Origin: a gamma proteobacterium HTCC2207
GTDB lineage: Bacteria > Pseudomonadota > Gammaproteobacteria > Pseudomonadales > Porticoccaceae
DNA length: 64,000 nucleotides
Direction of reading: 5' to 3'
Assembly (NCBI GenBank): GCA_905182855.1
Contig: CAJJDA010000009.1
Coordinates: 253,309-317,308 of the forward strand
The notes beneath the pieces are model-generated. The model did not search any database. It saw nothing but the letters and a program-made list of their open reading frames with translations, and was not told the DNA's origin. Below, one piece after another: positions 18,428-60,264 of this stretch (position 1 is the first letter of the stretch; each line of letters starts with the position of its first letter). A program made the position numbers and the translations under genes.

Positions 18428-18613
18428 TTACAAGAAACCCGACTGCTTACCGATATACCAGCTAACAGCACCCAATATGGCGACCACTACCCAAAGGACC
18501 GCCAACAATCTCAGCGGACGAAAGGGCTGACGTTCTGTGCGGTTATAACCGGCATTAATCACCTGGTCAACGCGGGCCTGATCTTCTGCAGATAAACTAT
18601 TTTCTTCATTCAT
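18428..18613 (-). CDS. DUF3094-type small inner-membrane protein
   Basis: A 61-residue protein with one C-terminal membrane helix (LLAVLWVVVAILGAVSWYI). The N-terminus (NEENSLSAEDQARVDQVI...) and the RQPFRP segment before the helix match the short gammaproteobacterial DUF3094 family of unknown function. Its start overlaps the bioD stop by one base, and recJ follows 21 bases later, so it sits inside the bio-recJ transcription unit. Confidence 0.8.
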   Translation of the reverse strand: MNEENSLSAEDQARVDQVINAGYNRTERQPFRPLRLLAVLWVVVAILGAVSWYIGKQSGFL

Positions 18614-19305: not shown

Positions 19306-19333
19306 AAGTAGTCACCCTCAATATTAATTAATG

Positions 19334-22033: not shown

Positions 22034-22041
22034 GTCAGGCG

Positions 22042-43880: not shown

Positions 43881-45335
43881 CTAGCTCGGGCTCCAGGCAG
43901 GTGCGATCATACGCCGCTTACCATCATGGGTTTTGCTAACGCCATCGGCATCCAAATCTACTCGATCCCAGAGTTCGCAGGTCACCTGCTTATGCTTTTG
44001 GTCTAAACCCTCGCAGTAGTTGCTAAAGCGGCATAGCGTGGCCTGAGCTCCGTGGCCGAGACGCACCTTTTCAAACCAATCTGGGTCTGCAAGAGATTGC
44101 CGGGCAAAACCAATAATGTCGGCTTGGTCTTTCTCTAGAATAGATTCGGCTTGCATAAAGCTATGAATTCCACCAGCTGTGATACAGGGCACCATGAGGT
44201 CTTTGGCAGCCAGACTATCCCGTATATGGGCAACGGGATTAATATTGCGCCCGAAGGGCCCGAAACTATCGGAAATATAACTCGGCATACACTCATAGCC
44301 GCTCTGCCCTGTGTAGGGATAGGCTGCCCAACCAACCTTTGGCTGCTTAGCATCATCAAACTTGCCGCCCCGAGAAAAGGAGAGAAAATCCATTCCAGCC
44401 GCAGAAAATTGTTCGGCAAAAAAAGTTGCGTCATCGAGTCGACTACCCTGCTCAAAAATCTCATCAGTCAGCATTCGACAACCGACAACAAACCCCTTAC
44501 CCGTATTTTTACGCACGGCCTGATAGACCTCCAGCGGCAGGCGCACGCGTCCCTCGCGAGAGCCTCCATAACCGTCGGTGCGGCTATTGGTGGCAGACAG
44601 AAATGAGGCCATGGTATAGGCATGAGCATAGTGCAGTTCGACACCATCAAAACCTGCTAACTCTGCCCGCTTCGCCGCATCGGAAAATAATAGCGGTAAT
44701 ACCTTAGGAAGCTCAGCAACCTCATCAATGTGGGTGTCGGTTACTCGCTCTCGATAACCAAAGCACATGTCTTCCCATTCTTTGACTGTTAGCACCGTCT
44801 GCTGTTGAGCCGCAGATAGCGCTATGAGATGATCCCGAACTTCCACATCATTCGCATCGGGCATATTTAACAAGTGGCGATGAGAATCGCTGATAGTGAG
44901 GAATCGGGATAAGAATTTGTCTGGGTCAGGGCGACGACGAATAGTCATAAAATCGATAAGCTGAATAAACAAGCGAGTCTTACCCTCACTGGCAATGCGC
45001 ACAGTCTCTACGAGTTTTTTCAAGCCGGGAATATAGCGATCATCGCCTACTCTGAGCAGCGGCCCACTGGGTGTATTGCGGATACCCGTGGCCTCAATAA
45101 CAATCGCGCCAGGCTTACCCTCGGCGAAGCGCTGATACCAATCGAGAACGTCTTGAGTGACCTCGCCGTCCTCATTGGAACGCCAAGGCACCATCGCTGG
45201 AATCCAGGTTCTTTGTTTAAGGCTAATAGTACCGATATCGATCGGAGAAAAAAGACGTGACTTTGCAGCTTCACCCGCATCGGGCCATTCATCATCGAGG
45301 GCTTTGTATTTGATTCGTTCGGCGGGCTTCCACAT
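43881..45335 (-). CDS. Old-yellow-enzyme-family NADH:flavin oxidoreductase
   Basis: FMN TIM-barrel reductase of 484 residues from ATG 45335 (MWKPAERIKYKALDDEWPD); an ATG-less upstream extension of 15 codons is less likely. Seen: RLFSPIDIGTISLKQRTWIPAM, GVELHYAHAYTMASFLSATNSRTDGYGGS (active-site block) and FGRNINPVAHIRDSL... near the end; the C-terminus has a Cys series (LCRFSNYCEGLDQK) that differs from the usual 4Fe-4S spacing of dienoyl-CoA reductases. Located next to the MarR gene at the edge of the catabolic island, so it may reduce an enone in that pathway. Confidence 0.87.
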   Translation of the reverse strand: MWKPAERIKYKALDDEWPDAGEAAKSRLFSPIDIGTISLKQRTWIPAMVPWRSNEDGEVTQDVLDWYQRFAEGKPGAIVIEATGIRNTPSGPLLRVGDDRYIPGLKKLVETVRIASEGKTRLFIQLIDFMTIRRRPDPDKFLSRFLTISDSHRHLLNMPDANDVEVRDHLIALSAAQQQTVLTVKEWEDMCFGYRERVTDTHIDEVAELPKVLPLLFSDAAKRAELAGFDGVELHYAHAYTMASFLSATNSRTDGYGGSREGRVRLPLEVYQAVRKNTGKGFVVGCRMLTDEIFEQGSRLDDATFFAEQFSAAGMDFLSFSRGGKFDDAKQPKVGWAAYPYTGQSGYECMPSYISDSFGPFGRNINPVAHIRDSLAAKDLMVPCITAGGIHSFMQAESILEKDQADIIGFARQSLADPDWFEKVRLGHGAQATLCRFSNYCEGLDQKHKQVTCELWDRVDLDADGVSKTHDGKRRMIAPAWSPS

Positions 45336-45435
45336 TATTTTAACAACCTCAGACTGAATACTTAGTTCTCTGCACCGCACCCTTATATCTGTAGACTCCG
45401 ACTATCGGACTCATAGAGTGACTAACCGTCTCTAG

Positions 45436-45952
45436 CTACAGGCCAGCTATCTGTGCGGTTGCAGTATCCTTTAACTTTCCTAAAAGACGATTTAGATCCT
45501 CGACCTCGGCGCTATCAAACTGTCCGAACATACCGATGATCCACTCCTCATGCCTTGCAGCCATAGTGATAAACTCGCGTCGGCCACTGGCAGGTTAGAC
45601 TGACAATAAATGATCTTTTATCGGTAGGCACGCTGACTCGATTAATCATGCCATCCTGCTCTAATTGACGTGCAATACCCGAAACATTACCTCCAGATAC
45701 CATAGTGCGCCTCGATAGCTCGCTCATGGTTAACCCTTCCGGATTTCTATCCAGCTGGGCAAGAAAATCAAATCTCGGTAATGTAGTATTAAACTCCTCG
45801 CGCAATGAGGTGCGCAGATCACCTTCTATCAGGCTGGTGCAAGTTAATAGGCGCAACCACAGCTTGATTGAATGATGATCATCTTCTACCAGCCTCGTTT
45901 CATGGTCTGAACCGGCCAATGCGTCTGATCTTATCTCATTAGTCTCTTTCAT
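45436..45952 (-). CDS. MarR-family regulator, interrupted by a frameshift near its end
   Basis: Winged-helix repressor of about 171 residues from ATG 45952 (MKETNEIRSDAL), which has AGGA upstream. HTH LTMSELSRRTMVSGGNVSGIARQLEQDG and wing PTDKRSFIVSLT are intact. The frame then breaks: the next codons run to a stop near 45548, while an adjacent frame continues as RREFITMAARHEEWIIGMFGQ through EVEDLNRLLGKLK to a stop at 45436, as MarR proteins require. A two-base loss near 45593 (restoring SLTPASGRREF) or a one-base gain near 45583 explains it. Divergent from the catabolic operon, so it is the likely local regulator. Confidence 0.87.
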
Positions 45953-46094
45953 TTCATTTCCTATTACTCGGAGCCCCCCAAACGATACGGCCGGCATTCT
46001 AAACTGTCCTCTAGCTGAGATCCAACTGGGCCTAGCACTCAAAAGCATTAGCGTGACCAAAGAAGTCATCGGTTCATACCAGATAGACGTAAAT

Positions 46095-46138
46095 AGTATA
46101 CAGTAACTATTTTAAATATAAAGTAGTTGCTGTATGCT
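46095..46138. promoter_or_regulatory. Long inverted repeat in the MarR/catabolic operon divergent region
   Basis: Arms AGTATACAGTAACTA (46095-46109) and TAGTTGCTGTATGCT (46124-46138) pair at 13 of 15 positions across a 14-base AT-rich spacer. It sits between the MarR gene and the first catabolic gene and is a good candidate MarR operator or pair of operators. Confidence 0.65.
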
Positions 46139-46240: not shown

Positions 46241-48568
46241 ATGAAGGTAGTTTGCTTAGGTGGTGGACCAGCGGGTCTGTATTTCGCTATTTCGATGAAG
46301 TTGCACGATCCTGCCCATGAAGTGGCGGTTTATGAGAGAAACCGGCCCGGCGATACCTTTGGCTGGGGCGTCGTTTTCTCTGACCAAACTCTAGATAATT
46401 TGCGCGCTAATGATCCAGTTAGTGCTGAGACTATTGAGAAAGAATTTATTCACTGGGATTTGATTGACTGTTACGTCAATGGCGGCCTAGAACGTTCAGA
46501 TGGTCATGGGTTTATTGGTTTAGGTCGAAAACGTATGCTTCAGGTGCTTTATGACCGCGCTGCCGAATTAGGTGTTGAGCTCAATTTTGAGCAAGAATTT
46601 GATCCCTCAGATATTGATGGCAGATTTGCCGATGCCGACATTGTGGCAGTCGCAGACGGCCTCAACTCTAAAGTCCGCACGGCTAATCTTGAAGCCTTCG
46701 ACTGTCAAGTTGACGTTAGGCGTAACCATTTTGTCTGGCTTGGCACCAATCAAACATTTCGCGATGCTTTTACCTTCATTTTTGAGAAAACCGATCTTGG
46801 TTGGATCTGGGCGCACGCCTATCAATTTGATGACAATACCGCGACCTTTATTGTTGAGTGCACACCAGAGGTGTATGAAGCCTATGGTTTTGAAACCATG
46901 AATCAGACGGAGAGTGCAGAGACCTGCCGTGAGATTTTTGCAAATTATCTAGGTGGTCATGACCTGATGACTAACTCTGCGCATGTGCAGGGTTCTGCAT
47001 GGATTAACTTCCCGCAACTGCTATGCCGAAACTGGGTGCTTGACGATCGCGTTGTGCTGTTGGGCGACTCGGCCCACACTGCACATTTTTCCATTGGCTC
47101 AGGTACTAAGTTAGGACTTGAAGATGCCATCGCATTGGCACAGCATTTAAATAATGATAGTCCGGTAGGTCAATCTCTGCATGCCTACCAGGCCGAACGT
47201 GAAACTGAGGCACTACGGCTACAAAATGCCGCACTCAACGCTCTTACGTGGTTTGAAAATGTACCACGGTATGCAGAAAAATTTGATCTGAAACAATTTA
47301 ATTATTCCATGTTGACGCGCAGCGAAAGAGTCAGTCATGAAAACTTGCGCCTTAGAGACAAAGACTGGCTTGAAGGAATGGAGCGTCATCTTGCTATGCG
47401 CTACACCGACGGTAAAGTCGACAAAGCCATCCCACCTATGTTTTTGCCTTTTAGTATCAAAGATATGGATCTGGTTAACCGCGTAGTGGTTTCCCCCATG
47501 TCCATGTATAGCGCTGTCGACGGCTTACCGAGTGACTGGCATCTGGTGCATTACGGCGCGCTGGCCAAAGGTGGTGCCGGTCTTGTGTTTACCGAAATGA
47601 CTGACATTTCGTCTGATGCGCGGATTACTCCTGGCTGCACGGGTATCTGGAATGCCGAGCAAGAAGCCAGTTGGATGCGTATTGTTGACTTTGTGCATCA
47701 GCAGACAGAGGCAAAAATCGCTCTGCAGATTGGTCATGCCGGCCCCAAAGGAGCCACTAAGGAACCGTGGAATTGGCATCCAGACCGTCTTGATGACCCC
47801 TTGGATGACCAGGACACATGGCCACTTTTATCGGCCAGTGCGACGCCTTACGACAGTTATAATCAGGTGCCACAGGCAATGAACCGAAAGGACATGGATA
47901 AGGTTACTCAACAGTTCGTAGCCGCAACTAAGCGCGCCATTAATGCCGGCTTCGATCTTCTCGAGGTGCACGCCGCCCATGGTTACCTGTTGTCCGCCTT
48001 TATTACTCCTCTTCTCAACCAGCGTCAGGATGAATATGGTGGCAGCCTAGAAAATCGTCTCCGTTACCCTCTGGAAGTTGTTGCCGCAGTGCGCGCAGTG
48101 TGGCCAGCGGAAAAGCCATTATCCGTGCGTATTTCCGCTCATGATTGGGTCGGCACAGAAGGTATTACTGAACAGGACTGCTTGGAAATTGCCCAGAGCT
48201 TTGCGACAGCTGGCGCCGATATTGTCGATGTGTCCAGCGGCCAGACCTCGCACCAAGGACGCCCACGTCCAGGCCGGATGTTCCAGACACCGCTTTCAGA
48301 TTTGATTCGCAATGAGGGCCAAGTTGCTACAATGGCAGTGGGTAACATCTATGAGGTCGACCACGTCAACAGCATAGTAGCGGCAGGACGAGCCGATTTG
48401 GTCTGCTTAGGTCGTCCCCACTTAGCGGATCCACAGTGGACATTACGCGCAGCCGCATCAACGGGCTACCGTGGCACTGGTGCTGCAGAGCAGAAGCAAT
48501 ATTTTATGGGTCACAGGCAGCTAGGCGTTCTAATGGAACGTGCGGCAAGTGCCGCCAATAAACAATGA
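46241..48568 (+). CDS. Bifunctional aryl-CoA monooxygenase / OYE reductase (2-aminobenzoyl-CoA or salicylyl-CoA type)
   Basis: 775-residue fusion. Residues 1 to about 390 are a flavoprotein hydroxylase: GGGPAG dinucleotide-binding at 7-12 and the second FAD motif [19 protein letters not shown]. From about residue 400 an old-yellow-enzyme FMN domain follows: [27 protein letters not shown] and [19 protein letters not shown]. The fusion is characteristic of 2-aminobenzoyl-CoA monooxygenase/reductase (hydroxylates C5, then reduces the ring) and of proteins named bifunctional salicylyl-CoA 5-hydroxylase. Surrounding beta-oxidation genes favour the former. First gene of the operon, with GAGG before the ATG. 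Confidence 0.9.
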
Positions 48569-48580
48569 TGGGATACTAAA

Positions 48581-49357
48581 ATGACAATGCATGGAGAGAT
48601 TCAACATGCCGTAGTAACGGGCGCCGGCGGCGGTATCGGGGCGGCTATCGTTACTGTACTGGTCCAGTCGGGTATTAAGGTGAGTCTTTTAGGTCGCACA
48701 CTCGAAAGCCTAGATAGGGTTCTCGATCGCTTAGGTCGACCACTCACAGCCCAAGGGGTGATGTGCGATGTCGCCAGTCGAGATCATGTGGATGCTGCCA
48801 TTAGTACGGCGACTAACGGCTTTGGCGCCATCAACTTGCTGGTTAACTGTGCAGGGATGGCTAAGACCAAGCCGTTTCATAAGATGACTAACGACGATTG
48901 GAATGACAGTATTGATGTAAATCTGAATGGCGTATTCAACTGCACTTCGGCAGTCATTAATAGCATGCGTGAGCAAAATTTTGGTCGTATTGTTAACATT
49001 GCCAGTACCTCGGCGCTAAAAGGCTATGCCTATGTCAGTGGCTACTGCGCCTCTAAGCACGCGGTATTGGGGTTAACTCGCGCATTGGCGCTCGAGACCG
49101 CCCTTTCGGGTATCACGGTCAATGCCATATGCCCAGGCTATACTGATACCAGTATTATCAGTGATGGTGTTAAGGTCATTGCTGAAAAAACTGGCCGCAC
49201 CGCTGAACAGGCCCTGCAAGCATTCACCAAGACTAATCCACAACAACGCTTAATCACGCCCATAGAAGTGGCTAACACCGTACTCTGGCTATGCGACCAA
49301 CATAGCCAGTCCATCACCGGACAGGCTCTATCACTTAGTGGTGGCGAGGTCATGTAA
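48581..49357 (+). CDS. SDR-family dehydrogenase (probable 3-hydroxyacyl-CoA dehydrogenase)
   Basis: 258 residues, classical SDR: TGAGGGIGAAIV at 15-26, NCAG, Ser in NIASTSALKG and YCASK. Twelve bases after the monooxygenase gene. In this setting it most likely oxidises an alicyclic 3-hydroxyacyl-CoA intermediate, by analogy with beta-oxidation-like ring cleavage pathways. Position-based role. Confidence 0.88.
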   Translation: MTMHGEIQHAVVTGAGGGIGAAIVTVLVQSGIKVSLLGRTLESLDRVLDRLGRPLTAQGVMCDVASRDHVDAAISTATNGFGAINLLVNCAGMAKTKPFHKMTNDDWNDSIDVNLNGVFNCTSAVINSMREQNFGRIVNIASTSALKGYAYVSGYCASKHAVLGLTRALALETALSGITVNAICPGYTDTSIISDGVKVIAEKTGRTAEQALQAFTKTNPQQRLITPIEVANTVLWLCDQHSQSITGQALSLSGGEVM

Positions 49358-49386
49358 TCCATGCAGTCATAAACGAAAGGTAATAG

Positions 49387-50202
49387 ATGATGCAAACAAC
49401 AGAGATGGCAAACTATAAAGCGCAAAACTTTTTATGGGAAGCCAACAATTCGGTCGGAGTGATCACACTCAATCGACCGGAACGTAAAAATCCACTGACT
49501 TTTGAGTCCTACGCAGAGCTGCGGGACCTATTTCGTGATTTGGTCTATGCCACTGATATCGATGTGGTCATCATCCACGGCATGGGCGGTAATTTCTGCT
49601 CCGGCGGTGATGTTAGGGAGATTATTGGGCCACTGACTGAGATGTCTATGAAAGAACTAATGGCGTTCACCCGCATGACAGGGGACCTCATTAAGGCGAT
49701 GCGTGCCTGCCGCCAGCCCGTGATTAGTGCTGTTGAAGGTATCTGTGCCGGTGCCGGCGCGATTATGGCTATGAGCAGTGACCTACGCTATGCGTCACCT
49801 ACGGCCAAGGTATCATTTCTATTTAACCGGGTCGGCCTAGCCGGCTGTGACATGGGGGCCTGTGCTATGTTACCGCGTATTATCGGACAGGGAAGAGCGG
49901 GTGAATTGCTTTATTTTGGCCGCTCACTGGGCGCCGAGCAGGGTGAGCAGTGGGGCTTTTTTAACGCGGTCACCGACGACCCGTTAGCGCATGCCAAAGA
50001 GATGGGTATGCGGATTGCTTCTGGCCCTACCTTTGCCAATGGTATGACTAAAATGCAACTGCATCAAGAATGGACTATGTCAATTGATCAGGCTATTGAA
50101 TCCGAGGCTCAGGCACAGGCAATCTGCATGCAGACGGAGGATTTTAAGCGTGCTTATAACGCCTTTATCATCAAAGATCAGCCGGTCTTTCAAGGCGATT
50201 AA
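49387..50202 (+). CDS. Enoyl-CoA hydratase/isomerase (crotonase) family protein
   Basis: Crotonase-fold protein of 271 residues. The oxyanion-hole segments [14 protein letters not shown] and [16 protein letters not shown] are present, then [22 protein letters not shown]. The two Glu residues of hydratases (GGGCELA and QPE regions) are absent: the first aligns with Ile/Met in GAGAIMA, and an Asp appears in CDMG. So it may be an isomerase, ring hydrolase or other crotonase rather than a plain hydratase. Between the SDR and acyl-CoA dehydrogenase genes. Confidence 0.88.
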
Positions 50203-50285
50203 CCTCGGAGAGCTCACACTTAAATGCGTTAGCGATCATTACATGCTGCCGCGGCGCAACAAAAACACCACCAAAGGAAACTACT

Positions 50286-51464
50286 ATGAGCGATCATTCT
50301 TATCTTGATTGGCCATTTTTAAATGATGACCATCGCGCACTCGCTGCCGAGGTGGATGGCTGGGCCGAAGACCATTTGGTGCAGCTTACTCAGCATGAAG
50401 AGGCAGATTTAGATGGCACCTGCAAGGCTATCGTCAGGGCGCTCGGGAAAGCGGGTTTATTGCGTCATGCTGTCCCTCAGAGTGCGGGGGGTGTCAATCC
50501 AAAACTGGATGTTCGCAGCCTGTCTGTCATCCGTGAAACTCTGGGGCGATATCATGCCCTCGCTGACTTTGCATTTGCTATGCAGGGGCTAGGCAGTGGT
50601 CCGATTTCCTTATTTGGCACGGAACAGCAGCAGCAGCAGTACCTGCGTCCAATATCTGAGGGTCGGTCGCTAGCGGCGTTCGCACTATCTGAACCCGAAG
50701 CTGGCAGCGACGTTCGTGCTATGACAACAACCGTCGTAGAGACCGATGATCATTTTGTCATTAACGGTGTTAAGACCTGGATTTCAAATGCCGGTTTAGC
50801 GGACTTTTACACCGTATTCGCCCGCACAGGGAGCAATGGCGGCACTAAAGACATCTGCTGCTTTATCGTTGAAGCAGATAACCCTGGGCTAGAGGTTACG
50901 GATCGTATCGAATTAATGGCTCCCCACCCGCTTGGAACGCTGGCATTTACTGACTGTAAAGTGCCCAAAGAAAATTTGGTCGGCACGTTGGGTGGCGGAC
51001 TGGGGATCGCTATGGCGACCTTGGATGTCTTTCGCACCACCGTGGCTGCGGCTGCACTGGGTATGGCTCGCCGGGCGATGGATGAAACATTGGCACATGT
51101 CAGTCGGCGTAAAGTGTTTGGCGGCGTGCTCAGTGATCTACAGCTTGTTCAAGGAAAAATCTCGGATATGGCTGTGGCCATAGATACCAGTGCACTGATG
51201 GTATATCGCTCGGCTTGGACTAAAGATTGTGTGGCAGATCGTGTCACCCGTGAGGCGGCTATGGCCAAACTGCATGCGACTGAATCAGCCCAGCTAGTCA
51301 TAGACGCTGCAGTGCAACTACATGGTGGTATAGGGGTAACTAAAGGAAATGTGGTTGAATCTTTGTACCGAGACGTTCGCGCCCTGCGTATCTACGAGGG
51401 GGCATCGGAGGTACAGCAGACAATTATAGCAAGGGAAGCACTCGCTAGCCTGAGGAAAGGCTAG
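50286..51464 (+). CDS. Acyl-CoA dehydrogenase
   Basis: FAD enzyme of 392 residues with the family motifs [23 protein letters not shown] and the catalytic Glu in [13 protein letters not shown]. Likely introduces or removes the alpha-beta double bond in an alicyclic or dicarboxylic CoA intermediate of the pathway. Last gene of the first block; convergent with the Rid-family gene 20 bases away. Confidence 0.92.
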
Positions 51465-51486
51465 CGATTAGGATCTAAAGTCGAGA

Positions 51487-51885
51487 CTAGCGGGGAATAA
51501 CCGCCGTCACTTCAATCTCGACTTTGGCTCTGTCTTCGACCAGAGCAACAACCTGAAAAACGCTCATGGCAGGATAGTGTTTACCCATAATTTTTTTGTA
51601 CGCTTGGCCTATGGGACGAAGGTTTTCGGCATATTCAGTTTTCGAGGTCAGGTACCAAGTCATGCGCGCCATATGCTCAGGTTTGGCATTGGCCTCGTCC
51701 AAAAGAGCTTTTATATTAGCAAGGGCCTGCTCTACTTGGGCGACAAAATCGTCCGATTCAAACTCACATTTTTCGTTCCAGCCAATCTGGCCGCCGAGAT
51801 AGAGAGTTTGGCCAGCATCGCATAGAACGCCGTTAGCATAACCTGATGGCTCAACCCAGTTTTCTGGTAAAAGATGAAGATGCAT
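51487..51885 (-). CDS. Rid-family (RidA/YjgF-like) protein, possible enamine/imine deaminase
   Basis: 132 residues from ATG 51885; an upstream TTG would add five. Rid fold: VLCDAGQTLYLGGQIGWNEK, QVEQALANIKALLDEANA, KVEIEVTAVIP. In RidA the motif PARS holds the Arg that binds the carboxylate; here it reads PAMS, so the Arg is missing, as in non-RidA Rid subgroups. Relatives include 2-aminomuconate deaminase. Since the ring-reduction product of 2-aminobenzoyl-CoA is an enamine, a Rid enzyme that releases ammonia would fit here. Divergent from the cyclase gene. Confidence 0.85.
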   Translation of the reverse strand: MHLHLLPENWVEPSGYANGVLCDAGQTLYLGGQIGWNEKCEFESDDFVAQVEQALANIKALLDEANAKPEHMARMTWYLTSKTEYAENLRPIGQAYKKIMGKHYPAMSVFQVVALVEDRAKVEIEVTAVIPR

Positions 51886-51921
51886 ATATTGTTGTTCCAA
51901 AGCAATTATTATTTAAGGCTG

Positions 51922-51949
51922 GATTATAGTTTAAACTTAAAATATAATC
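51922..51949. promoter_or_regulatory. 28-base palindrome with TTTAAACTTAAA core, shared motif site 2
   Basis: Arms GATTATAGTTTAA and TTAAAATATAATC pair at 12 of 13 positions around a two-base centre. It lies in the middle of the 106-base divergent region between the Rid gene and the cyclase gene and so could control both. Its core repeats the palindrome at 46156. Confidence 0.7.
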
Positions 51950-51991
51950 TATGCACCTGTTTTATGTACCCAGACCTAAAAGGAATCGACT

Positions 51992-52780
51992 ATGAGTAAC
52001 TCTTCGCTAATTAATCTCGTGCAAGACCTCGCCTCTGGCAAAGTAACCATTGTAGATCTAACCGCTACCTTAGAGCCGGCATCACCGACACTGAAGCTGC
52101 CTGAAGAATTTGGCTGGGGCAAATCATGGCCATTTAGTATTGAAGAAATTTCTCGCTACGACGAGCGCGGTCCCTTTTGGTACTGGAATAATTTTAAGTG
52201 CGGCGAGCATACTGGGACCCACTTTGACGCACCTGTGCATTGGGTAACCGGTCAAGACCACAATGATAACTGCACAGACAACATGCCAGTAGAGAACTTT
52301 GTTGGCCCAGCGTGCGTGATCGATGCCTCCGCAGAAAGTGCCGCAGACCCTGATTTTTTAATGTCGATAGACTTTATTAAGCAGTGGGAAGAAAAACACG
52401 GGATGATAGAAGCGGGCTCTTGGGTGCTTTACAGATCCGACTGGTCAAAGATCATAACGTCTGATAAGTACCTTAACATGCAGGCCGATGGTAGTCACAC
52501 GCCGGGGTGGGAGCCAGATGCCGTAGTTTTTTTAGCCGAGCAACGCAATATATTAGGTGTGGGTGTGGAAACGGTAGGAACAGACGCAGGACAGGCTGCT
52601 GTTCAGGACCCAATGTTCCCGTGTCACAATATTATGCATGGCGCGAACAAATGTGGTCTCGCCGGATTAAAAAATCTCGATAAGCTACCCGCTAAAGGCG
52701 CTATATTAATCGCGCCGCCGTTAAAAATTAAAGGTGGCTCTGGGAGTCCAACGAGAGTGTTAGCACTAGTGACATCCTAA
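51992..52780 (+). CDS. Cyclase-family metal-dependent hydrolase, isatin hydrolase / kynurenine formamidase type
   Basis: 262 residues. The metal site GEHTGTHFDAPVHW (about 72-85) is the family hallmark, with His and Asp ligands. It is preceded by an aromatic block GPFWYWNNF that resembles isatin hydrolase, where Trp residues stack on the substrate; LGVGVETVGTDAG and PCHNIMHGANKCGL complete the fold. Isatin hydrolase opens isatin to isatinate; kynurenine formamidase is the main alternative. AAGGA precedes the ATG. First gene of the iorAB block. Confidence 0.82.
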   Translation: MSNSSLINLVQDLASGKVTIVDLTATLEPASPTLKLPEEFGWGKSWPFSIEEISRYDERGPFWYWNNFKCGEHTGTHFDAPVHWVTGQDHNDNCTDNMPVENFVGPACVIDASAESAADPDFLMSIDFIKQWEEKHGMIEAGSWVLYRSDWSKIITSDKYLNMQADGSHTPGWEPDAVVFLAEQRNILGVGVETVGTDAGQAAVQDPMFPCHNIMHGANKCGLAGLKNLDKLPAKGAILIAPPLKIKGGSGSPTRVLALVTS

Positions 52781-52834
52781 GTAAGATTAATATTTTAAAG
52801 CCCAGTAATTGAGATTAATTTCAAGCGGAAACCT

Positions 52835-55024
52835 ATGGCAGAGCGGTCGTTTAAAAAAGAAGTCCTGAAACTACATGCCGGCGACGGCGACACATTTCAG
52901 GGCGAAGGGATTCTTGCGATAACCAAAGGCCTACTGCAGTCCGGGGTGGCCTATGTCGGTGGCTACCAGGGCTCACCGATCTCTCATCTAATGGATGTCC
53001 TTAATGATGCCCAAGATATATTGGGTGATCTGGGCGTTCATTTTGAGGCCAGTGGCAGCGAGGCAACTGCGGCGGCAATGCTCAGCGCGTCTATCAACTA
53101 CAACCTCCGCGGGGCTGTCACTTGGAAATCCACGGTCGGCACTAATGTGGCGTCAGATGCACTATCAAATATTGCCTCTTGCGGCGTCACTGGCGGCGCC
53201 ATTGTAATTGTCGGTGAAGACTACGGTGAAGGTTCGAGTATTATGCAAGAGCGAACCTATGCTTTTGCTATGAAGGCACAGATGTGGTTGGTTGATCCGC
53301 GGCCAAATCTAACCAGTATTGTCGATATGATCGAGCAGTCGTTTCAGCTCTCGGAAGCGAGTAATACTCCGGTGTTTTATATGATGAGGGTTCGCGGCTG
53401 TCATGTCACCGGCGAGTTTGTCGCTAAAAATAATGTGGCTCCAGAGTTTGGCACTAAAAATTCTGTAACGCCTAATCGTGAAGCTGAAAAAATAATCCTA
53501 CCACCTCATGTCTATCAGCAAGAGCAGGATAAAATTGCAAAACGCTGGCCAGCGGCTGTTGACTTTATTATAAAAAATAAACTCAATGAATTTTTCCCTG
53601 GCAAACATAAAGACTTAGGTATTATCACGCTAGGCGGTAACTACAATACCTTAATCAGAGCACTGCAGCGTCAGGGCCTAGCAGACAGCTTTGGTAAGAC
53701 TGCTATTCCTATTTATGTAATGAATGTGGCCTATCCTGTGGTACCCGAGGAAATGGTCGAGTTTTGTTTAGGTAAAAAACATGTTCTGCTTTTAGAAGAG
53801 GGACAACCGGAGTACATTGAGCCGGCAATCCATAGCATTCTTAGAAAGCGAGATATTCAAACCAAGCTTTACGGTAAAGACTTATTTCCGCGCGCAGGCG
53901 AGTACACAGCGCAGGTTACTCTGACAGGCCTGACGCGCTTTTTAGAAGTCGCAGGCTATAGTAATGACAAGCATTCACTGTCTGTAGATGATGTCAAAAA
54001 ACTCAGCTCACCACTCAGTGACGAGGAACATGAGCGTCTACTGTCTGTAGTGCCGGCGAGACCCTCCGGCCTATGTACAGGCTGCCCAGAGCGACCATTA
54101 TTTAGTGCCATCAAGCAGGTTCAGAAAGAACTTGGGCCTTTCCATATTAGCTCTGATATCGGCTGCCATTCCTTTGCAACATTGGCGCCGTTTAATCTCG
54201 GCAATACGATTATGGGTTACGGCCTTTCATTGGCAAGTTCCTCGAGTATTCGAAAAGCACTGCCACACAAGGCTATTAGCATCATGGGCGATGGTGGCTT
54301 TTGGCACAACGGTCTGTCATCTGGTGTAGTCAGTGCGGTATTCAACAAACATGATGGTATTTTGATTATCGTCAACAACGGGTATTCGGCAGCCACTGGA
54401 GGCCAGGATATTCCCTCCATGGTCGAGCCTAATAATTTGATTGCCACCACGATGGATGCAGCATCCTCAGAGCGCGACGATTCGGTATCCATTGAACTGG
54501 CCTGTCGAGGCGCTGGCGTCAAGTGGGTTAAAACGGTGAGCACTTACAGTATTGAAGAGATGAAGCAAACGCTGACTGATTCTCTGAATACCGCTGAGCC
54601 GGGACTCAAGGTAATTATTGCCGAAGGCGAATGTATGCTCAATCGCCAGCGCCGCATCAAGCCGCTGATGAAAAATGCTATCGCCAAAGGAAAGCGTACG
54701 GTTCGCGCACGATTTTACATCGACCCTAAAACCTGTACTGGTGATCATGCCTGTATTCGAATCTCTGGGTGCCCCTCCCTGACCATAAAGCCAAGTACAG
54801 ATAGTCTCCGCGAAGACCCCGTGTCCTATGTTGATAATAGCTGCGTCGGCTGCGGTGTTTGTGGGGACAACGTGCACAGTGCTGTGCTCTGTCCGTCATT
54901 TTCGAAAATCGACCTCATTCACAATCCAAGCTGGCTAGACCTAAGTGCGTCGACTGTGCGTCGATCAGTGATAGGTTGGTTTGAAAAATATGATGCATGG
55001 AAAAGACCGGGACAGATACTTTGA
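52835..55024 (+). CDS. Indolepyruvate-type 2-oxoacid:acceptor oxidoreductase, alpha subunit
   Basis: TPP-dependent enzyme subunit of 729 residues (IorA-like). Domains: pyrimidine-binding N-terminal domain (GEGILAITKGLLQSGVAYVGGYQGSP), TPP-binding GDGGFWHNGLSSG near residue 485 with NNGYSAATGGQD, and a C-terminal ferredoxin domain (about 630-695) with CVGCGVCGD and additional Cys. Such enzymes oxidatively decarboxylate aryl-2-oxoacids to aryl-CoA, passing electrons to ferredoxin or another acceptor. In this cluster the likely substrate is isatinate, 2-(2-aminophenyl)-2-oxoacetate, giving 2-aminobenzoyl-CoA; this is inference. Confidence 0.88.
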   Translation: MAERSFKKEVLKLHAGDGDTFQGEGILAITKGLLQSGVAYVGGYQGSPISHLMDVLNDAQDILGDLGVHFEASGSEATAAAMLSASINYNLRGAVTWKSTVGTNVASDALSNIASCGVTGGAIVIVGEDYGEGSSIMQERTYAFAMKAQMWLVDPRPNLTSIVDMIEQSFQLSEASNTPVFYMMRVRGCHVTGEFVAKNNVAPEFGTKNSVTPNREAEKIILPPHVYQQEQDKIAKRWPAAVDFIIKNKLNEFFPGKHKDLGIITLGGNYNTLIRALQRQGLADSFGKTAIPIYVMNVAYPVVPEEMVEFCLGKKHVLLLEEGQPEYIEPAIHSILRKRDIQTKLYGKDLFPRAGEYTAQVTLTGLTRFLEVAGYSNDKHSLSVDDVKKLSSPLSDEEHERLLSVVPARPSGLCTGCPERPLFSAIKQVQKELGPFHISSDIGCHSFATLAPFNLGNTIMGYGLSLASSSSIRKALPHKAISIMGDGGFWHNGLSSGVVSAVFNKHDGILIIVNNGYSAATGGQDIPSMVEPNNLIATTMDAASSERDDSVSIELACRGAGVKWVKTVSTYSIEEMKQTLTDSLNTAEPGLKVIIAEGECMLNRQRRIKPLMKNAIAKGKRTVRARFYIDPKTCTGDHACIRISGCPSLTIKPSTDSLREDPVSYVDNSCVGCGVCGDNVHSAVLCPSFSKIDLIHNPSWLDLSASTVRRSVIGWFEKYDAWKRPGQIL

Positions 55025-56559
55025 GTAAGCAGCAACCGAAAACTATTAATATTATTCTTGCCGCGCTCGGTGGCGAGGGTGGCGGTGTATTTACTAACTG
55101 GCTTATCGAAGTAGCTGAAGCCAATAATTGGCTCTGTCAGTCGACGTCCTTAGCTGGGGTTGCCCAGCGCACCGGCGCTACTATTTACTACATAGAACTG
55201 TTCCCCACGCAAGCTAAGGACGATAGGAAACCCGTTATGTCATTGTTTCCATCTCAGGGTGATATTGATATAGCCGTGAGTTCAGAGATAGCGGAAACGG
55301 GCCGGATGTTGCAGCGCGGTTTTGTCACTCCCGACAAAACCACATTGATTAGTTCCAGCCATCGCGTTTATGGTATCACCGAGAAGTCAGATCTGGCCGA
55401 CGGCACCATGGACAGTTCAACTGTGGTGGAGCTTGCCAATAAGTACAGCAGACAGTTTATAAGTTTCGATATGGCAGAACTAGCCAACAAACACAACTCT
55501 GTTATCAGTTCTGCTATGTTTGGCGCGCTAGCCGGTGCCAATGTTTTACCGTTCGCTAAACAGAGCTTCAGCGATGTGATCACCAATAGCGGAAAAATGG
55601 TGGCCACCAATCTTAGTGTTTTTGAAGAGAGTTATACGCAGGCACAGCAGATTGTCGCGGGCGATAACCCTGATAGAAAAACACCTCAGGTAGAAATATT
55701 TACGCCGGAGACAGCCGCAGCAACGACAGCAGGATTTTGCCTTCCATCGGCTACTTCAGAAAAGGGCGCCCTTTTATTGGAGCGTCTTAAATGCGACTTT
55801 CCCGTCAGCACTCATGAGCTAATACATCAGGGTTTAATTAGGGTGCTGGACTATCAAGACTTTGCTTATGCCACTCAGTATCTCGACGAACTCAGCGAGG
55901 TCCTCGCCCTCGACACCGGGGCTGAGCAATATAAGCTAACGACTATCACGGCCCGCTACCTTGCCCTATGGATGTCCTTTGAAGATATTCCTCGCGTTGC
56001 CCAGTTAAAAGTCAGAGCCACGCGTATGTCCGAGATTCGTACTGAGGTGAAAGCGGCCGAAGGACAAATTATCCATGTCACTGAATTTTTCAGACCCCGA
56101 GCGGAAGAGATCTGTGCCATTTTACCCAGAGCATTGGGCTCCGCTATGCTATCTAATCGCTGGTCACGCCGCCTGATAGAGCTTTTTGCAGGCGGTAAAA
56201 AGTTGCGTACTGACAGTCTGGTGGTCTATCTGGTTCTGCGCACAATGGGCTCTTTCAAGCATATCCGACGTTACAGCCTTGGCTATCATCATGAGATGAA
56301 ACTCATTCGTGGCTGGTTATATCAGATTAAGGAGCAAGTGGCCGCGAACCCTCAGGTAGCATTAGAGATCGCTTTGTGTGGTCGCCTAGTCAAGGGCTAT
56401 GGGGGGACTCGTGAACGCACCTCTAAACAGGTTTCTGTGATTTGCCAAAATGCCAGTGCTAACGAATGTATTTCTGCCGAATATATCGCCAAGCTGCGTA
56501 CCGCTGCCATGGCAGACGACACCAATGAAGCCTTCTACACTATACTTACTGAAAGCTAA
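54997..56559 (+). CDS. Indolepyruvate-type 2-oxoacid oxidoreductase, beta/gamma subunit with long C-terminal domain
   Basis: 520 residues, overlapping the alpha-subunit gene by 28 bases. The N-terminal 200 or so residues are the 2-oxoacid oxidoreductase gamma domain (ILAALGGEGGGVFTNWLIE, AGVAQRTGATIYYIEL), followed by about 300 residues of the DUF6537-type domain found in long bacterial indolepyruvate oxidoreductases. TTG 55021, with GGGA upstream, is an alternative start eight codons later. It forms a complex with the preceding gene product. Confidence 0.87.
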   Translation: MEKTGTDTLSKQQPKTINIILAALGGEGGGVFTNWLIEVAEANNWLCQSTSLAGVAQRTGATIYYIELFPTQAKDDRKPVMSLFPSQGDIDIAVSSEIAETGRMLQRGFVTPDKTTLISSSHRVYGITEKSDLADGTMDSSTVVELANKYSRQFISFDMAELANKHNSVISSAMFGALAGANVLPFAKQSFSDVITNSGKMVATNLSVFEESYTQAQQIVAGDNPDRKTPQVEIFTPETAAATTAGFCLPSATSEKGALLLERLKCDFPVSTHELIHQGLIRVLDYQDFAYATQYLDELSEVLALDTGAEQYKLTTITARYLALWMSFEDIPRVAQLKVRATRMSEIRTEVKAAEGQIIHVTEFFRPRAEEICAILPRALGSAMLSNRWSRRLIELFAGGKKLRTDSLVVYLVLRTMGSFKHIRRYSLGYHHEMKLIRGWLYQIKEQVAANPQVALEIALCGRLVKGYGGTRERTSKQVSVICQNASANECISAEYIAKLRTAAMADDTNEAFYTILTES

Positions 56560-56628
56560 ATCTACCGCAGTGCCGTATCTTAATAGCAACCAAAGCTATT
56601 GCATTGCTAAATCCTTTAGGAGCAAATA

Positions 56629-57813
56629 ATGACATCAGCATGGCCCCCCATGAATTGGGAAGACCCATTTTTACTGGACCAACAGTTAACAGAAGAAGAG
56701 CGACTGGTCAGGGATACTGCCGAGCAGTATGCACAGGATAGGCTTGCCCCGAGAATTCAGAGCGCTTATCGCAATGAAACAATCGACTTGGACATTTTTA
56801 CAGAAATGGGCTCTCTGGGCCTGTTGGGGCCAACTATCGAAGGTTATGGCTGTGCCGGTGTCAGCTATGTCAGCTATGGCTTGACTGCCCGCGCCGTTGA
56901 GATGGTTGACTCTGGTTACCGCTCTATGATGTCCGTGCAGTCTAGTCTGGTCATGTACCCTATTTATGCCTTTGGCTCCGAACAGCAAAAAGAGAAATAC
57001 CTGCCTAAACTAGCGACGGGTGAAGCGATAGGTTGCTTTGGCTTAACCGAACCCGATCACGGTTCAGACCCCAGTGGCATGTTAACTAATGCCAAGAAAG
57101 TCGCGGGCGGCTACCTGTTAAATGGCGCCAAGATGTGGATATCTAACTCGCCGTTTGCCGATGTTCTTATTGTCTGGGCCAAGCTGCGCGACGAGAATAA
57201 TGCCATCCGTGGTTTTATTCTCGACAAGGGGCTAGCCGGTCTGACCACGCCGAAAATTACCGGTAAATTGAGCCTGCGCGCCTCAACTACTGGACAGATT
57301 GTCATGCAGGATGTGTTGGTCAGTGAAGACGCCATATTGCCTAATGTGCAGGGTTTAAAAGGGCCTATGAGTTGCCTGAGTAATGCTCGTTACGGTATCG
57401 CCTGGGGATCATTAGGCGCAGCCGAAGCCTGCTGGCGTGCTGCTCGCAGTTATACTCTAGAACGCAGTCAGTTTAGACGACCGCTAGCGGCCAATCAGTT
57501 GGTGCAAAAGAAGCTTGCCGACATGCAGACCGAAATATTTATTGGTTTGCAGGCCTGCTTGCAAGCTGGGCGCCTCAAGGAGACTGATCAACTGTCCCCT
57601 GAAACGGTTTCGATGATCAAGCGCAATTCATGTGGCAAATCGCTGGCCATTGCACGGGAAGCTAGAGACATGCTCGGTGGTAATGGCATCTCTGATGAGT
57701 ACCCGGTTATGCGCCATATGCTCAACTTAGAAACAGTCAATACCTATGAGGGCACTCATGATATCCACGCCCTCATACTAGGACGAGCTATTACCGGTAT
57801 TGCTGCGTTTTAA
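56629..57813 (+). CDS. Glutaryl-CoA dehydrogenase-like acyl-CoA dehydrogenase
   Basis: 394 residues, FAD enzyme converting glutaryl-CoA to crotonyl-CoA and CO2. The start [37 protein letters not shown] and the active-site segment [20 protein letters not shown] are the glutaryl-CoA dehydrogenase pattern. Its presence suggests that the ring-cleavage route ends in a C5 dicarboxyl-CoA. AGGAG precedes the ATG. Last gene of the plus-strand block. Confidence 0.93.
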
Positions 57814-58139: not shown

Positions 58140-59708
58140 TCAGCCGGTTTTGATCAGATGTTCAGCCGTGCGATAGGCCAAAGCACTGACCGTAAAGGTG
58201 GGATTTACCGCACCGCTGGTAGGGAACAGGCTCGGCCCGACCACATAGAGATTGTCGGTACCATGCACCAGACCTAGATCGTCAGTCACAGAGGTTTGTT
58301 CTTTCGATCCCATCACCGCACCGCCCATAATATGGATAGGCGCACGTGGCCCAGTCCATACCTCTGTAGCACCGCCAGCGCGGAAGATCGCTTCACCCTC
58401 CGCCATCGCAAACGCCATCTGAGCCTCCTGTTCCGGTCCGGCATTGTGCACTGTTCGGGCAACTGGAATACCAAACTTATCTGTCTTATCACTTAGCATG
58501 ACACGATTTTCTCGTACCGAGCGATCTTCACCGACATACAGCATATTACCGAGATGCTTGGCAGCCTGAGCCATAAAGGGCTGCAGTTTTGGACCAAAAA
58601 TATCCGGCCGACTATTGGCATAACCTAGCAGTCCATTAGGTTTAACTGCATTGGCGATTAACCATTGATAGGAGCCAAAGCTATCTTTGATCGCCGTCTT
58701 ATCATCATAATGGTCATGACAGATCAACTGTCCACCCGTAGGGCCCAAATGGGGGTCAGTTTGCTCAGAGAATAAACCAAACACTGTACGACCAGCATGA
58801 GTCGTAAGATAGCGACCTAAATTATCAAACTGATTACCTAGGGCAACGCCATTGGCGCGCACTGAATTCAAAAGAATACGTACCGTCTGCACCGTAAAGG
58901 CAGCCAGCACCACCCTGCCCGCCTTAACGCGCTGCGTGTGGCCCTCTCTGTCAATATATTCCACACCACTAGCGACATCTTGACGATTCTTGTCAGTCAA
59001 TACACGCGTCACCTGTGCATCATAACGAATCTCAGCTCCAGCCAAGATAGCCTGTTTGAGATGGGTTACCAGTGGATTTTTAAGCGCACCAATTGGACAG
59101 CCGGCATCGCACCAGCCATCGTAGACACAGGATGGGTTGCCTTTATAGGGCACGCTATTAATAGCCAGTGGAATCGGTGCTGTGGTCAGACCCATGGCAC
59201 TGAAACCTTTACTGATCACCTGGCCCTGAGCAAAAACGGGTAGGGGCGGCATGGGATAGGGTTCACCTTTAGGCCGCCATATCTCGGCCTTGGCATCGCC
59301 ACTAATACCTACATCCGCCTGAACTTCATCATAGTAGGGGCGCAGGGTTTCATAACTGATAGGCCAATCGAGATTTTTACCGTGTTTAGACAGGATATCG
59401 AAATCATTGCTGTGCAGGCGCGGCCAGACACCATAATGGTGCAATGCTGAACCTCCGGCACCAAATCCAGCATTAAAACCATGGCCAATTTTGTGATTTC
59501 CCTCTTCTTCTACAGCTGAACCAGACCATTTAAGTTGCCGTGCCCACAACTGGGAACTGATCAGGTCTTTAAGATCTCGACTGGGACCCGCTTCTAAAAT
59601 CAACACCGACTGACCGGCTTCTGCGAGCTTAGAGGCGATGATGCTACCGGAGGCGCCAGAGCCAACGACGACACAATCATACTGTTGATTTGAGGTTAAA
59701 GGTGTCAT
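58140..59708 (-). CDS. GMC-family FAD dehydrogenase (large subunit)
   Basis: 522 residues. N-terminal FAD-binding VVVGSGASGSIIASKLAEAG, GGSALHHYGVWPRL, and C-terminal GMC block (HIMGGAVMG, LYVVGPSLFPTSGAVNPTFT). It has a Cys-containing stretch CVYDGWCDAGCPIGALKNP, typical of gluconate/sorbitol-type dehydrogenases. No signal peptide; the preceding gene encodes a Tat-targeted small subunit, so it is probably exported as a complex. Oxidises an alcohol or hydroxy compound in the periplasm; substrate unknown. Confidence 0.9.
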   Translation of the reverse strand: MTPLTSNQQYDCVVVGSGASGSIIASKLAEAGQSVLILEAGPSRDLKDLISSQLWARQLKWSGSAVEEEGNHKIGHGFNAGFGAGGSALHHYGVWPRLHSNDFDILSKHGKNLDWPISYETLRPYYDEVQADVGISGDAKAEIWRPKGEPYPMPPLPVFAQGQVISKGFSAMGLTTAPIPLAINSVPYKGNPSCVYDGWCDAGCPIGALKNPLVTHLKQAILAGAEIRYDAQVTRVLTDKNRQDVASGVEYIDREGHTQRVKAGRVVLAAFTVQTVRILLNSVRANGVALGNQFDNLGRYLTTHAGRTVFGLFSEQTDPHLGPTGGQLICHDHYDDKTAIKDSFGSYQWLIANAVKPNGLLGYANSRPDIFGPKLQPFMAQAAKHLGNMLYVGEDRSVRENRVMLSDKTDKFGIPVARTVHNAGPEQEAQMAFAMAEGEAIFRAGGATEVWTGPRAPIHIMGGAVMGSKEQTSVTDDLGLVHGTDNLYVVGPSLFPTSGAVNPTFTVSALAYRTAEHLIKTG

Positions 59709-59712
59709 TGGC

Positions 59713-60264
59713 TCACCAGCTGGTGGTTGGCGCTATATGCGCCATGTAGGGAATGTTGAGCGCCTCGCTACCAGCGCTGGAGCCAAAAACCACATCACAG
59801 GCGTCTGCGCGAACGACAAAAAAGAAGAAGCCTGCCGGGGGACCCTGCCATTCTTTGTCCGTACCAGCAGCAATATTTTCAGCCCAAGCTAGCGCCTCAT
59901 TCGCGGTTAAAGCCTCTGGAGATTTTTTAAATAAACGCTGAGACAGCCTATGGGCGCTACCTAACGCACTACGGTAAAACCCGGGCATAGCACTGGTGTC
60001 CACACCCAGATATTTGAGCATCAACAGGGTGTTGGGCTCGCCTAGCTGCTTATCTATGTATTGAATAATGCCCGCCTCGAGCGCCCCGGGAACAAGAGCC
60101 TCACCCAAGGCGCCTAGCGTAAGCGCTTGATCTTTGGTGAGAGCCTTGAGGGGAAGAGAAACTGCCTGAGCTTGCCTAGGACTGAGTAGCGCTCCGCCGG
60201 CGGCCAATCCGGCTAAGCCGATGCCCGTTGAGGCGATGAAGTTACGACGCGAGAGGTCATTCAT
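59713..60264 (-). CDS. Gluconate 2-dehydrogenase subunit 3-like, Tat-exported small subunit
   Basis: 183 residues with a Tat signal: SRRNFIASTGIGLAGLAAGG at the N-terminus, cleavage after about residue 35. The remainder is a helical gamma-subunit domain (LTKDQALTLGALGEALVPG, FFFFVVRADACDVVFG). Four bases ahead of the GMC gene. It would carry the large subunit through the Tat pore. A cytochrome c subunit, often third in such enzymes, is not seen nearby. Confidence 0.85.
   Translation of the reverse strand: MNDLSRRNFIASTGIGLAGLAAGGALLSPRQAQAVSLPLKALTKDQALTLGALGEALVPGALEAGIIQYIDKQLGEPNTLLMLKYLGVDTSAMPGFYRSALGSAHRLSQRLFKKSPEALTANEALAWAENIAAGTDKEWQGPPAGFFFFVVRADACDVVFGSSAGSEALNIPYMAHIAPTTSW

Follow-up and report, generated by a model that had tools for sequence, protein, structure and literature searches.

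How might a bacterium that degrades an indole compound by way of isatin arrive at 2-aminobenzoyl-CoA, if it has no CoA ligase with which to make it? The question is raised by a stretch of 64,000 nucleotides (the window) from gamma proteobacterium HTCC2207 (Porticoccaceae; GenBank assembly GCA_905182855.1, contig CAJJDA010000009.1, positions 253,309 to 317,308), in which genes for a cyclase of the isatin hydrolase type, for IorA and IorB (together IorAB, a 2-oxoacid oxidoreductase) and for a predicted fused 2-aminobenzoyl-CoA monooxygenase/reductase (ABM) lie in one island at positions 46241–57813. On genomic evidence together with published expression data, we consider it likely (with a probability of roughly 0.73) that the island forms an operon for the breakdown of such a compound, and that IorAB makes 2-aminobenzoyl-CoA in it without a ligase.

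Isatin and auxin catabolism are already known; what is new is the genomic prediction of a specific role for IorAB, an enzyme with no assigned reaction. If correct, it would fill a gap in the iad-type auxin pathways, in which IorAB is present in the loci and strongly induced by auxin in Bradyrhizobium, with no reaction described in those parts of the published accounts that were at hand. It would also mean that the ATP cost of the ligase is saved, would account for the companionship of isatin-type IorAB and ABM, and would extend isatin catabolism to marine gammaproteobacteria (Porticoccaceae and Halieaceae).

The enzymes of the proposed route

The cyclase would hydrolyse isatin to isatinate (2-aminophenylglyoxylate), which IorAB, with thiamine pyrophosphate (TPP) and iron–sulfur centres, would convert with CoA to 2-aminobenzoyl-CoA, CO2 and reduced ferredoxin, no ATP being spent. 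ABM would take 2-aminobenzoyl-CoA onward, towards glutaryl-CoA, and a Rid protein may hydrolyse the enamine or imine arising from ABM, helping the release of ammonia. A short-chain dehydrogenase/reductase (SDR) could serve a ketone/alcohol step after ring reduction, and a crotonase the hydration or hydrolytic opening of the ring; together with a second Old Yellow Enzyme (OYE)-type protein (OYE2, perhaps for a further ring or enone reduction) and an acyl-CoA dehydrogenase (ACAD1), they would account for ring reduction, ring opening and beta-oxidation to a dicarboxylyl-CoA and thence to glutaryl-CoA. The last enzyme, ACAD2, would by its family function convert glutaryl-CoA to crotonyl-CoA. All of these reactions are our reconstruction, chiefly the substrate and product of IorAB, the sequence in which the lower steps occur and where the isatin comes from upstream; in Halieaceae relatives it might be formed from auxin through IadDE. 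The core genes are as follows (positions in the window, then strand).

46241..48568, + strand: ABM, predicted fused 2-aminobenzoyl-CoA monooxygenase/reductase (NF006101 over cut-off; VioD-like and OYE-like halves; tree)
48581..49357, + strand: SDR dehydrogenase (profile matches; downstream of ABM in relatives)
49387..50202, + strand: enoyl-CoA hydratase/crotonase, ECH (NF006107, 458.7 bits, over cut-off)
50286..51464, + strand: ACAD1, acyl-CoA dehydrogenase of the ABM module (profile matches; gene context in relatives)
51487..51900, − strand: Rid-family protein (PF01042; adjoins the cyclase in relatives, and also occurs in ligase-type ABM clusters)
51992..52780, + strand: isatin hydrolase-type cyclase (PF04199), predicted activity (330.5 bits to isatin hydrolase 5nmp)
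52835..55024, + strand: IorA, TPP and iron–sulfur subunit, proposed alpha subunit of an isatinate:acceptor oxidoreductase (CoA-acylating) (TIGR03336, PF02775)
54997..56559, + strand: IorB with C-terminal DUF6537, beta subunit of the same proposed enzyme (NF006179 over cut-off; PF01558 and PF20169)
56629..57813, + strand: ACAD2, classed as glutaryl-CoA dehydrogenase (decarboxylating) (593 bits to 3gnc)

All are intact open reading frames (ORFs) of clear families, the first 28 bases of IorB being shared with the end of IorA. An earlier, sequence-only reading of the window had placed the same genes (cyclase, IorAB, fused monooxygenase, SDR, crotonase, two acyl-CoA dehydrogenases and Rid) in one island, and this core stands; the flanking genes for OYE2, a MarR regulator, a GMC dehydrogenase and a TonB receptor had been overlooked.

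The cyclase is the sole PF04199 match in the window genome (G000; here and below G denotes a genome and L a locus), a 1.64-Mb assembly that is 76% complete and has Porticoccaceae and Halieaceae among its named relatives. Of the proteins with solved structures, four isatin hydrolase sequences match the cyclase best (282–331 bits, the 330.5 bits being to 5nmp), whereas kynurenine formamidases reach at most 26 bits (26.2 for the best). In isatin hydrolase (LaIHA numbering) the metal ligands are H69, H73 and D75, and the catalytic residues H79, D193 and H207 (PMC6117287). The equivalents in the window cyclase are H73, H77, D79, H83, D198 and H212, and all six are invariant in 96 cyclase ORFs (84 distinct sequences, the window's included), as are the ring-stacking tryptophans W65 and W84, with W63 kept in 94 of the 96. 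The position of LaIHA Gln219 is occupied by Ala224, and not by Glu, in the window cyclase, and across the 96 ORFs by Ala in 85 and Gln in 11; LaIHB, too, has Ala there (PMC6117287). We file the protein as isatin-hydrolase-type, the predicted reaction being isatin + H2O to isatinate, in agreement with what had been read from the sequence.

IorA has a TPP domain and a weak match, below Pfam's cut-off, to a 4Fe-4S dicluster domain, and seven C-terminal cysteines are conserved in 90–91 of 91 ORFs (84 distinct, the window's included). IorB with its DUF6537 extension scores 572.8 bits against NF006179 (cut-off 348), comprising a POR-type domain (PF01558) and DUF6537 (PF20169).

ABM is a single chain, with domains at residues 2–324 and 400–738, in which an FAD monooxygenase is fused to an OYE-type reductase, and it scores 1164.5 bits against NF006101 (cut-off 1078). 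The NCBIfam name of that model is bifunctional salicylyl-CoA 5-hydroxylase/oxidoreductase, a label that seems misleading because, among 72 loci fetched with ABM as the starting point, 13 have a tryptophan 2,3-dioxygenase gene nearby and 50 an aminobenzoate-type ligase gene; a Rid gene is near ABM in 49. Such a gene context points to an amino-aryl substrate, putatively 2-aminobenzoyl-CoA. At the other end of the operon, ACAD2 matches 3gnc at 593 bits over residues 7–394, nearly its full length; of its ten best matches among solved structures, nine bear the name glutaryl-CoA dehydrogenase (one of them 'putative'), and the tenth, 4w9u, that of acyl-CoA dehydrogenase. We file it on this likeness as a glutaryl-CoA dehydrogenase; the sequence-only reading had the family right and is here made more precise, and its proposed end product, glutaryl-CoA, gains support from the presence of this gene in the operon.

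The lower pathway need not be the same everywhere. In L138 (positions 9815-22201, Caballeronia sp. SBC1) and L267 (positions 2781-13070, Shinella), a thioesterase gene directly follows IorAB, and cupin, fumarylacetoacetate-hydrolase-like, carbon-nitrogen hydrolase and Asp/Glu-racemase genes are near; L138 also has ABM, and its cupin resembles gentisate/5-aminosalicylate dioxygenases, scoring below both cut-offs. These loci would fit a different lower route via a hydroxylated aminobenzoate, again starting from a CoA ester.

IorAB, its companions and the alternatives

Does IorAB keep the company that the proposed route predicts? In a phylum survey of 398 genomes (the ABM and IorB surveys being taken as covering the same 398 by their genome labels), ABM was found in 71, in 64 of them over the family cut-off, and IorB at 1e-40 in 28. 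ABM is present in 26 of the 28 genomes with IorB, as against 45 of the 370 others, the sample being taxonomically uneven, with many genomes from few families, so that Fisher statistics, here and for the ABM loci compared below, overstate independence. In a FastTree tree of IorA (93 rows), an eight-row clade whose surroundings lack cyclase, ABM and IadD stands apart from two groups that have them; the clades were drawn on a tree that also displayed gene context. The isatin clade of IorA occurs in 25 genomes (19 placed on the tree, six later), and all 25 have ABM, over the cut-off in 22 and below it in G365, G638 and G653. Three genomes (G417, G476 and G502) have only the other IorA clade, and one of these has ABM, so both of the IorB genomes that lack ABM belong outside the isatin clade. 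The earlier suggestion that IorAB feeds the fused monooxygenase is thus borne out at the level of gene companionship. A locus of the other clade, on a plasmid of Variovorax boronicumulans (L135:11818-22394), has IorAB with genes for an alpha-hydroxy-acid oxidase, an enolase-superfamily protein and an ABC transporter, which suggests another route from a 2-hydroxyacid through a 2-oxoacid to an acyl-CoA.

The cyclase, too, is a frequent neighbour. A named species-genome collection was scanned with the window's IorA peptides, giving 69 loci (chosen, therefore, by likeness to the window IorA, and each at most about 22 kb long), of which 62 contain the cyclase; it was not detected in L040, L054, L055, L069, L072, L077 or L083. 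As the window genome has a single PF04199 match, a pairing at this frequency is not due to chance. By ORF clustering, ABM is found in 27 loci, the window included. Two of the loci carry unexpected titles (L056 Flavobacteriaceae, L076 Klebsiella pneumoniae), and these assemblies are probably mislabelled or mixed: IorA and ABM of L056 are 84% identical to the window's, and L076 groups with an uncultured gammaproteobacterium.

What of the ligase? With the ABM-linked ligase of Ruegeria pomeroyi as query, 15 distinct IorAB genomes were searched (16 handles, G280 and G662 giving identical matches and being counted once), and the best match in any of them was at most 246.7 bits, compared with 1060 and 944 bits (85 and 77% identity) in two controls. 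An orthologue of the aminobenzoate-CoA ligase is absent from all 15 genomes searched, the window genome among them. ABM is present in every one (over the cut-off in 11, below it in G099, G240 and G664, and in two pieces in G659). Eight of the 14 other genomes are 96–99% complete; the window's, at 76%, is incomplete enough to weaken the absence if it is taken alone. Its best match has an E-value of 2.5e-37 (134 bits in the loci compared). It has 10 matches to AMP-forming ligases, two pairs of which look like pieces of one gene; as candidates for the aminobenzoate-CoA ligase these were rejected, scoring at most 134 bits. The claim of the sequence-only reading that no such ligase is present, which covered the window only, therefore stands there and, for the orthologue, throughout the assembly, with the qualification that other AMP-forming ligase matches exist.

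Of the 73 ABM matches in the 398 genomes, 72 were fetched (the window's being left out), and after five stretches shorter than 13.5 kb had been set aside 67 loci remained for comparison. The ligase threshold of 450 bits (ligase-type matches being at least 509, and the next match 274) and the context thresholds were set after the scores had been seen. ABM loci with IorB or cyclase within about 9 kb have the ligase in 4 of 15 cases, those with neither in 45 of 52 (none in the other seven). ABM occurs twice in G496, once with the ligase (L153) and once with IorAB (L170). The ligase and IorAB look like alternatives at a locus, yet can coexist in a genome. An ABM tree (99 rows, 88 of them labelled: 50 with ligase context and 38 with IorAB and/or cyclase context) requires at least nine switches between the two contexts, and the window ABM sits in an 18-row clade in which all have IorAB and cyclase; FastTree was the only method used for the trees. 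Taken together, ABM in 25 of 25 genomes, the lack of the ligase in 15 of 15 and the hydrolase residues in 84 of 84 distinct cyclases lend genomic support to the step originally proposed, from isatinate to 2-aminobenzoyl-CoA by IorAB with no ligase.

Several observations weigh against this role for IorAB. IorA scores 273.2 bits (E 3.9e-81) against TIGR03336 (indolepyruvate ferredoxin oxidoreductase alpha subunit), under the equivalog cut-off of 650.9, and is a homologue that we do not file as a member. No solved relative of IorA or of IorB turned up by sequence, so the substrate is unreadable from the active site (assignment through such a relative was rejected on this ground), and the IorAB family as a whole is not isatin-specific, given its eight-row clade without markers. 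Among 29 loci fetched with IorB as the starting point, only 16 have the cyclase nearby; six of the 13 without it are of the other IorA clade (L268–L271, L273 and L275), and when these are dropped and six later loci, all with the cyclase, are added, the count becomes 22 of 29; the cyclase of G392 is beside ABM, some 30 kb away from IorB on one contig. Counted by genome, the ABM-linked ligase is present in as many as 11 of 24 ABM loci from genomes with IorB (and in 38 of 43 from genomes without), and one stretch from Alloyangia (L136) contains cyclase, IorAB, ABM and an aminobenzoate-type ligase. Further, a Variovorax preprint (2025; PMC12633357) gives anthranilate as the final product from the nine-gene region iadC-K2, which by its name omits iadA and iadB, so that isatinate may there reach anthranilate without IorAB. 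The cyclase count around IorB and the double supply in L136 led us to lower our probability from 0.74 to 0.73.

Might IorAB act elsewhere? By analogy with the archaeal indolepyruvate enzyme it could work upstream, on indolepyruvate or another arylpyruvate to give indoleacetyl-CoA, isatinate being decarboxylated otherwise to anthranilate and then activated by an unrecognised ligase. The family name and the TIGR03336 profile speak for this, as does the citation of the archaeal arylpyruvate reaction for the induced IorAB of Bradyrhizobium japonicum by the authors of an expression study (PMC3788728). In that study 1 mM auxin induced iorA, which may be of either clade, 30.7-fold and iorB 7.64-fold in 3 h (PMC3788728), in keeping with our route; auxin, the inducer, is downstream of indolepyruvate, which argues against an arylpyruvate substrate. 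So does the content of nine annotated plasmid stretches with IorAB, six of them with the cyclase and none with an annotated aromatic aminotransferase in a gene table that is incomplete, a count tempered by two finds: in L138 a class V aminotransferase lies some 6 kb away from IorA, and in L266 a DegT-type aminotransferase is some 9 kb away from IorB. With the constant presence of ABM beside isatin-clade IorAB and the lack of the ligase in the genomes searched also against it, we regard this explanation as unlikely.

Alternatively, IorAB might decarboxylate isatinate as we suppose, releasing free anthranilate (or 2-aminobenzaldehyde), with 2-aminobenzoyl-CoA then formed by some ligase that bears no relation to the known enzyme. 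In Variovorax, anthranilate, isatinic acid and a C7H7NO compound have all been detected (PMC9613470, PMC12633357), and the 10 AMP-ligase matches of the window genome would leave room for such an enzyme. Yet the ABM-linked ligase scores at least 509 bits in all 50 ligase-type loci and at most 247 in the 15 IorAB genomes, and the thioesterase gene directly behind IorAB in L138 and L267 suggests that a CoA thioester is the product; we think free anthranilate distinctly improbable as the product. Nor do we set much store by a different aryl compound altogether, with ABM a true salicylyl-CoA 5-hydroxylase and the cyclase opening another lactam or a lactone. The NCBIfam label of NF006101 would favour it, and the substrates of the window proteins are themselves predicted; against this, the tryptophan 2,3-dioxygenase and Rid genes in the ABM-first loci indicate an amino-aryl substrate, the cyclase residues match those of isatin hydrolase, and an Arthrobacter homologue, 50% identical to the ABM of Azoarcus evansii, has a verified anthranilate-CoA ligase as its partner (PMC3534580). 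This last explanation seems to us very improbable indeed.

Flanking genes and front ends

How far does the island extend, and whence would its isatin come? A second genome of the same genus (G222), 98% complete and assembled as one contig, has the core and flanking genes together in some 22 kb: glutaryl-CoA dehydrogenase, IorB, IorA, cyclase, Rid, a luciferase-like monooxygenase (LLM), TonB receptor, GMC dehydrogenase and a MaoC-like protein, with ACAD1, crotonase, SDR, ABM, MarR and OYE2 making up the rest. Because G222 carries them all in one run, the flanking MarR, OYE2, GMC and TonB genes of the window belong to the island. The LLM of the window assembly is on another contig (G000:C2:1981-3051; 76% identity to that of G222), and the MaoC-like protein has no match in the window. 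The flanking features are the following.

43881..45380, − strand: OYE2, second Old Yellow Enzyme-type flavin oxidoreductase, 499 aa (PF00724; ORF cluster in 20 loci including the window; adjoins MarR in G222)
45548..46069, − strand: MarR-family regulator (PF12802/PF01047)
46095..46138, no strand: inverted repeat with 20-nt arms between MarR and ABM, candidate operator (repeat scan)
51922..51949, no strand: inverted repeat in the divergent intergenic region between Rid and cyclase, candidate operator (repeat scan)
58140..59708, − strand: GMC oxidoreductase, front-end candidate (PF05199/PF00732; ORF cluster in 19 loci)
59713..60264, − strand: Gluconate_2-dh3-type small subunit of the GMC enzyme (PF13618; ORF cluster in 19 loci)
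60440..62923, − strand: TonB-dependent receptor, front-end candidate for uptake (PF00593/PF07715; ORF cluster in 24 loci)

The MarR gene is probably frame-shifted near 45592: similarity to its relatives goes on in another frame to about 45439 (45439–46069 in all), three of four relatives matching in two frames and the fourth ending at the break, which could be an assembly error or real. Of 11 loci scanned, not all of which include the intergenic stretch in question, L056 and L068 retain both arms of the repeat between MarR and ABM; a single operator motif for the whole family was rejected, the pair being kept in those two loci alone.

Beside Rid, cyclase, IorA and IorB, some Halieaceae-type loci add a Rieske oxygenase alpha subunit (seven loci) and beta subunit (eight), an SDR (eight), a ChsH2-type zinc-ribbon protein (five), a thiolase-like protein (nine) and an AMP-forming ligase (10). 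The alpha subunit is an orthologue of IadD, scoring 447.6 bits to 9o71 (the IadDE structure from Variovorax paradoxus CL014), biphenyl dioxygenases reaching at most 169. Thiolase-like/ChsH2-type pairs are used for retro-aldol removal of side chains in steroid catabolism, and by analogy the pair here would release isatin and acetyl-CoA from dioxindole-3-acetyl-CoA. Orthologues of IadD (at least 517 bits) are present in 10 of the 15 genomes searched; G099 and G663 gave weak matches only (at most 153 bits), and at E 1e-25 there was no match in the window genome (76% complete), in G222 (98% complete) or in G240. It had been noted that no indole-ring dioxygenase is visible in the window, and this holds, for the IadD type at that threshold, in the window and the rest of its 76%-complete genome. 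Five Rieske oxygenases are present in that genome, three of them upstream of the window at distances of about 2–28 kb; these three were rejected as candidates for the absent indole oxygenase, having 24–30% identity to IadD and a different-looking neighbourhood. That region (G000:C9, about 224846-250872, covered by L017 and L018) holds three Rieske alpha subunits, many SDRs, a pimeloyl-CoA-dehydrogenase-like pair and a fatty-acid/cyclohexanecarboxylate-type CoA ligase, and looks like an alicyclic or steroid pathway.

Other supplies of isatin can be imagined from the neighbours of IorAB. The nearest NCBIfam models to the LLM are SfnG, NtaA/DmoA and RutA, all below cut-off, and the nearest solved relatives of the GMC enzyme are glucose and fructose dehydrogenases. 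These need not replace IadD, as G280 (apparently HTCC2080, locus L066) has LLM, TonB, GMC and IadD together. In four Rhodobacterales-type loci (L080, L081, L092 and L102) the large and medium subunits of a molybdenum hydroxylase lie beside cyclase and IorAB, as a further front end. L136 of Alloyangia has an annotated styrene/indole monooxygenase family gene in front of ABM, and in Azospirillum thermophilum (L142) MarR, IorAB, an IadD-type Rieske pair, an AMP ligase, SDR, ABM, SDR, crotonase and acyl-CoA dehydrogenase follow in a row, with no cyclase in the stretch examined. Front ends, then, vary, while IorAB and mostly the cyclase too are constant. It is conceivable, and to us slightly short of an even chance, that cyclase and IorAB form a portable module, repeatedly swapped with the ATP-using ligase before ABM and fed by unrelated front ends. 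In the genus of the window, the SfnG/RutA-related LLM, the GMC dehydrogenase and the TonB receptor would make isatin from a marine indole compound, and the carbon of auxin loci would pass through 2-aminobenzoyl-CoA, anthranilate being a side product.

Known systems compared

The iad auxin loci of Variovorax paradoxus CL14 and Bradyrhizobium resemble the island in their isatin-type pathway, their hydrolase IadI (annotated as a kynurenine formamidase), their MarR regulator and their IorA/IorB homologues (PMC9613470, PMC12633357). B. japonicum is reported to degrade auxin via isatin to anthranilate, and figure legends list iorB/iorA homologues in auxin loci, paired with the names IadB/IadA, the legend letters being partly at odds with the main text (PMC9613470). 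The Variovorax preprint gives reactions to iadC-J and, in the part of its text at hand, mentions neither iadA, iadB nor indolepyruvate (PMC12633357); a reaction of IorAB on isatinate was not found in the open-access literature searched, subscription papers being outside that search. The likeness to iad clusters that had been remarked on earlier is strengthened by the Halieaceae relatives, which carry the IadD orthologue in the same island as the isatin-hydrolase-type enzyme and IorA/IorB. As IadD was sought and not found in the window genome, nor in G222, the window is not classed here with the iad loci; a further difference is that the published pathway ends, as far as the accounts at hand go, in anthranilate with no described IorAB reaction, whereas here IorAB and ABM would connect it to 2-aminobenzoyl-CoA.

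The abm-type clusters for aerobic 2-aminobenzoate degradation (Azoarcus evansii, Arthrobacter Rue61a, and plasmids of R. pomeroyi and Paracoccus denitrificans) supply the other half of the comparison. Those on the R. pomeroyi and P. denitrificans plasmids share ABM, SDR, MarR, crotonase, acyl-CoA dehydrogenase and Rid with the window, and differ in holding an AMP-forming ligase, in the place of which the window and the 14 other IorAB genomes, with no orthologue of it, have the cyclase and/or IorAB. For the proposed chemistry of IorAB there is an analogue in phenylglyoxylate:acceptor oxidoreductase, which converts phenylglyoxylate to benzoyl-CoA and so leads from an aryl-2-oxoacid to an aryl-CoA; the comparison concerns the chemistry, and IorB here has its DUF6537 extension. 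The cyclase, finally, is close in sequence to the isatin hydrolases of Labrenzia aggregata (IHA and IHB) and Ralstonia solanacearum (IHA), with the same metal and catalytic residues and scores of 282–331 bits.

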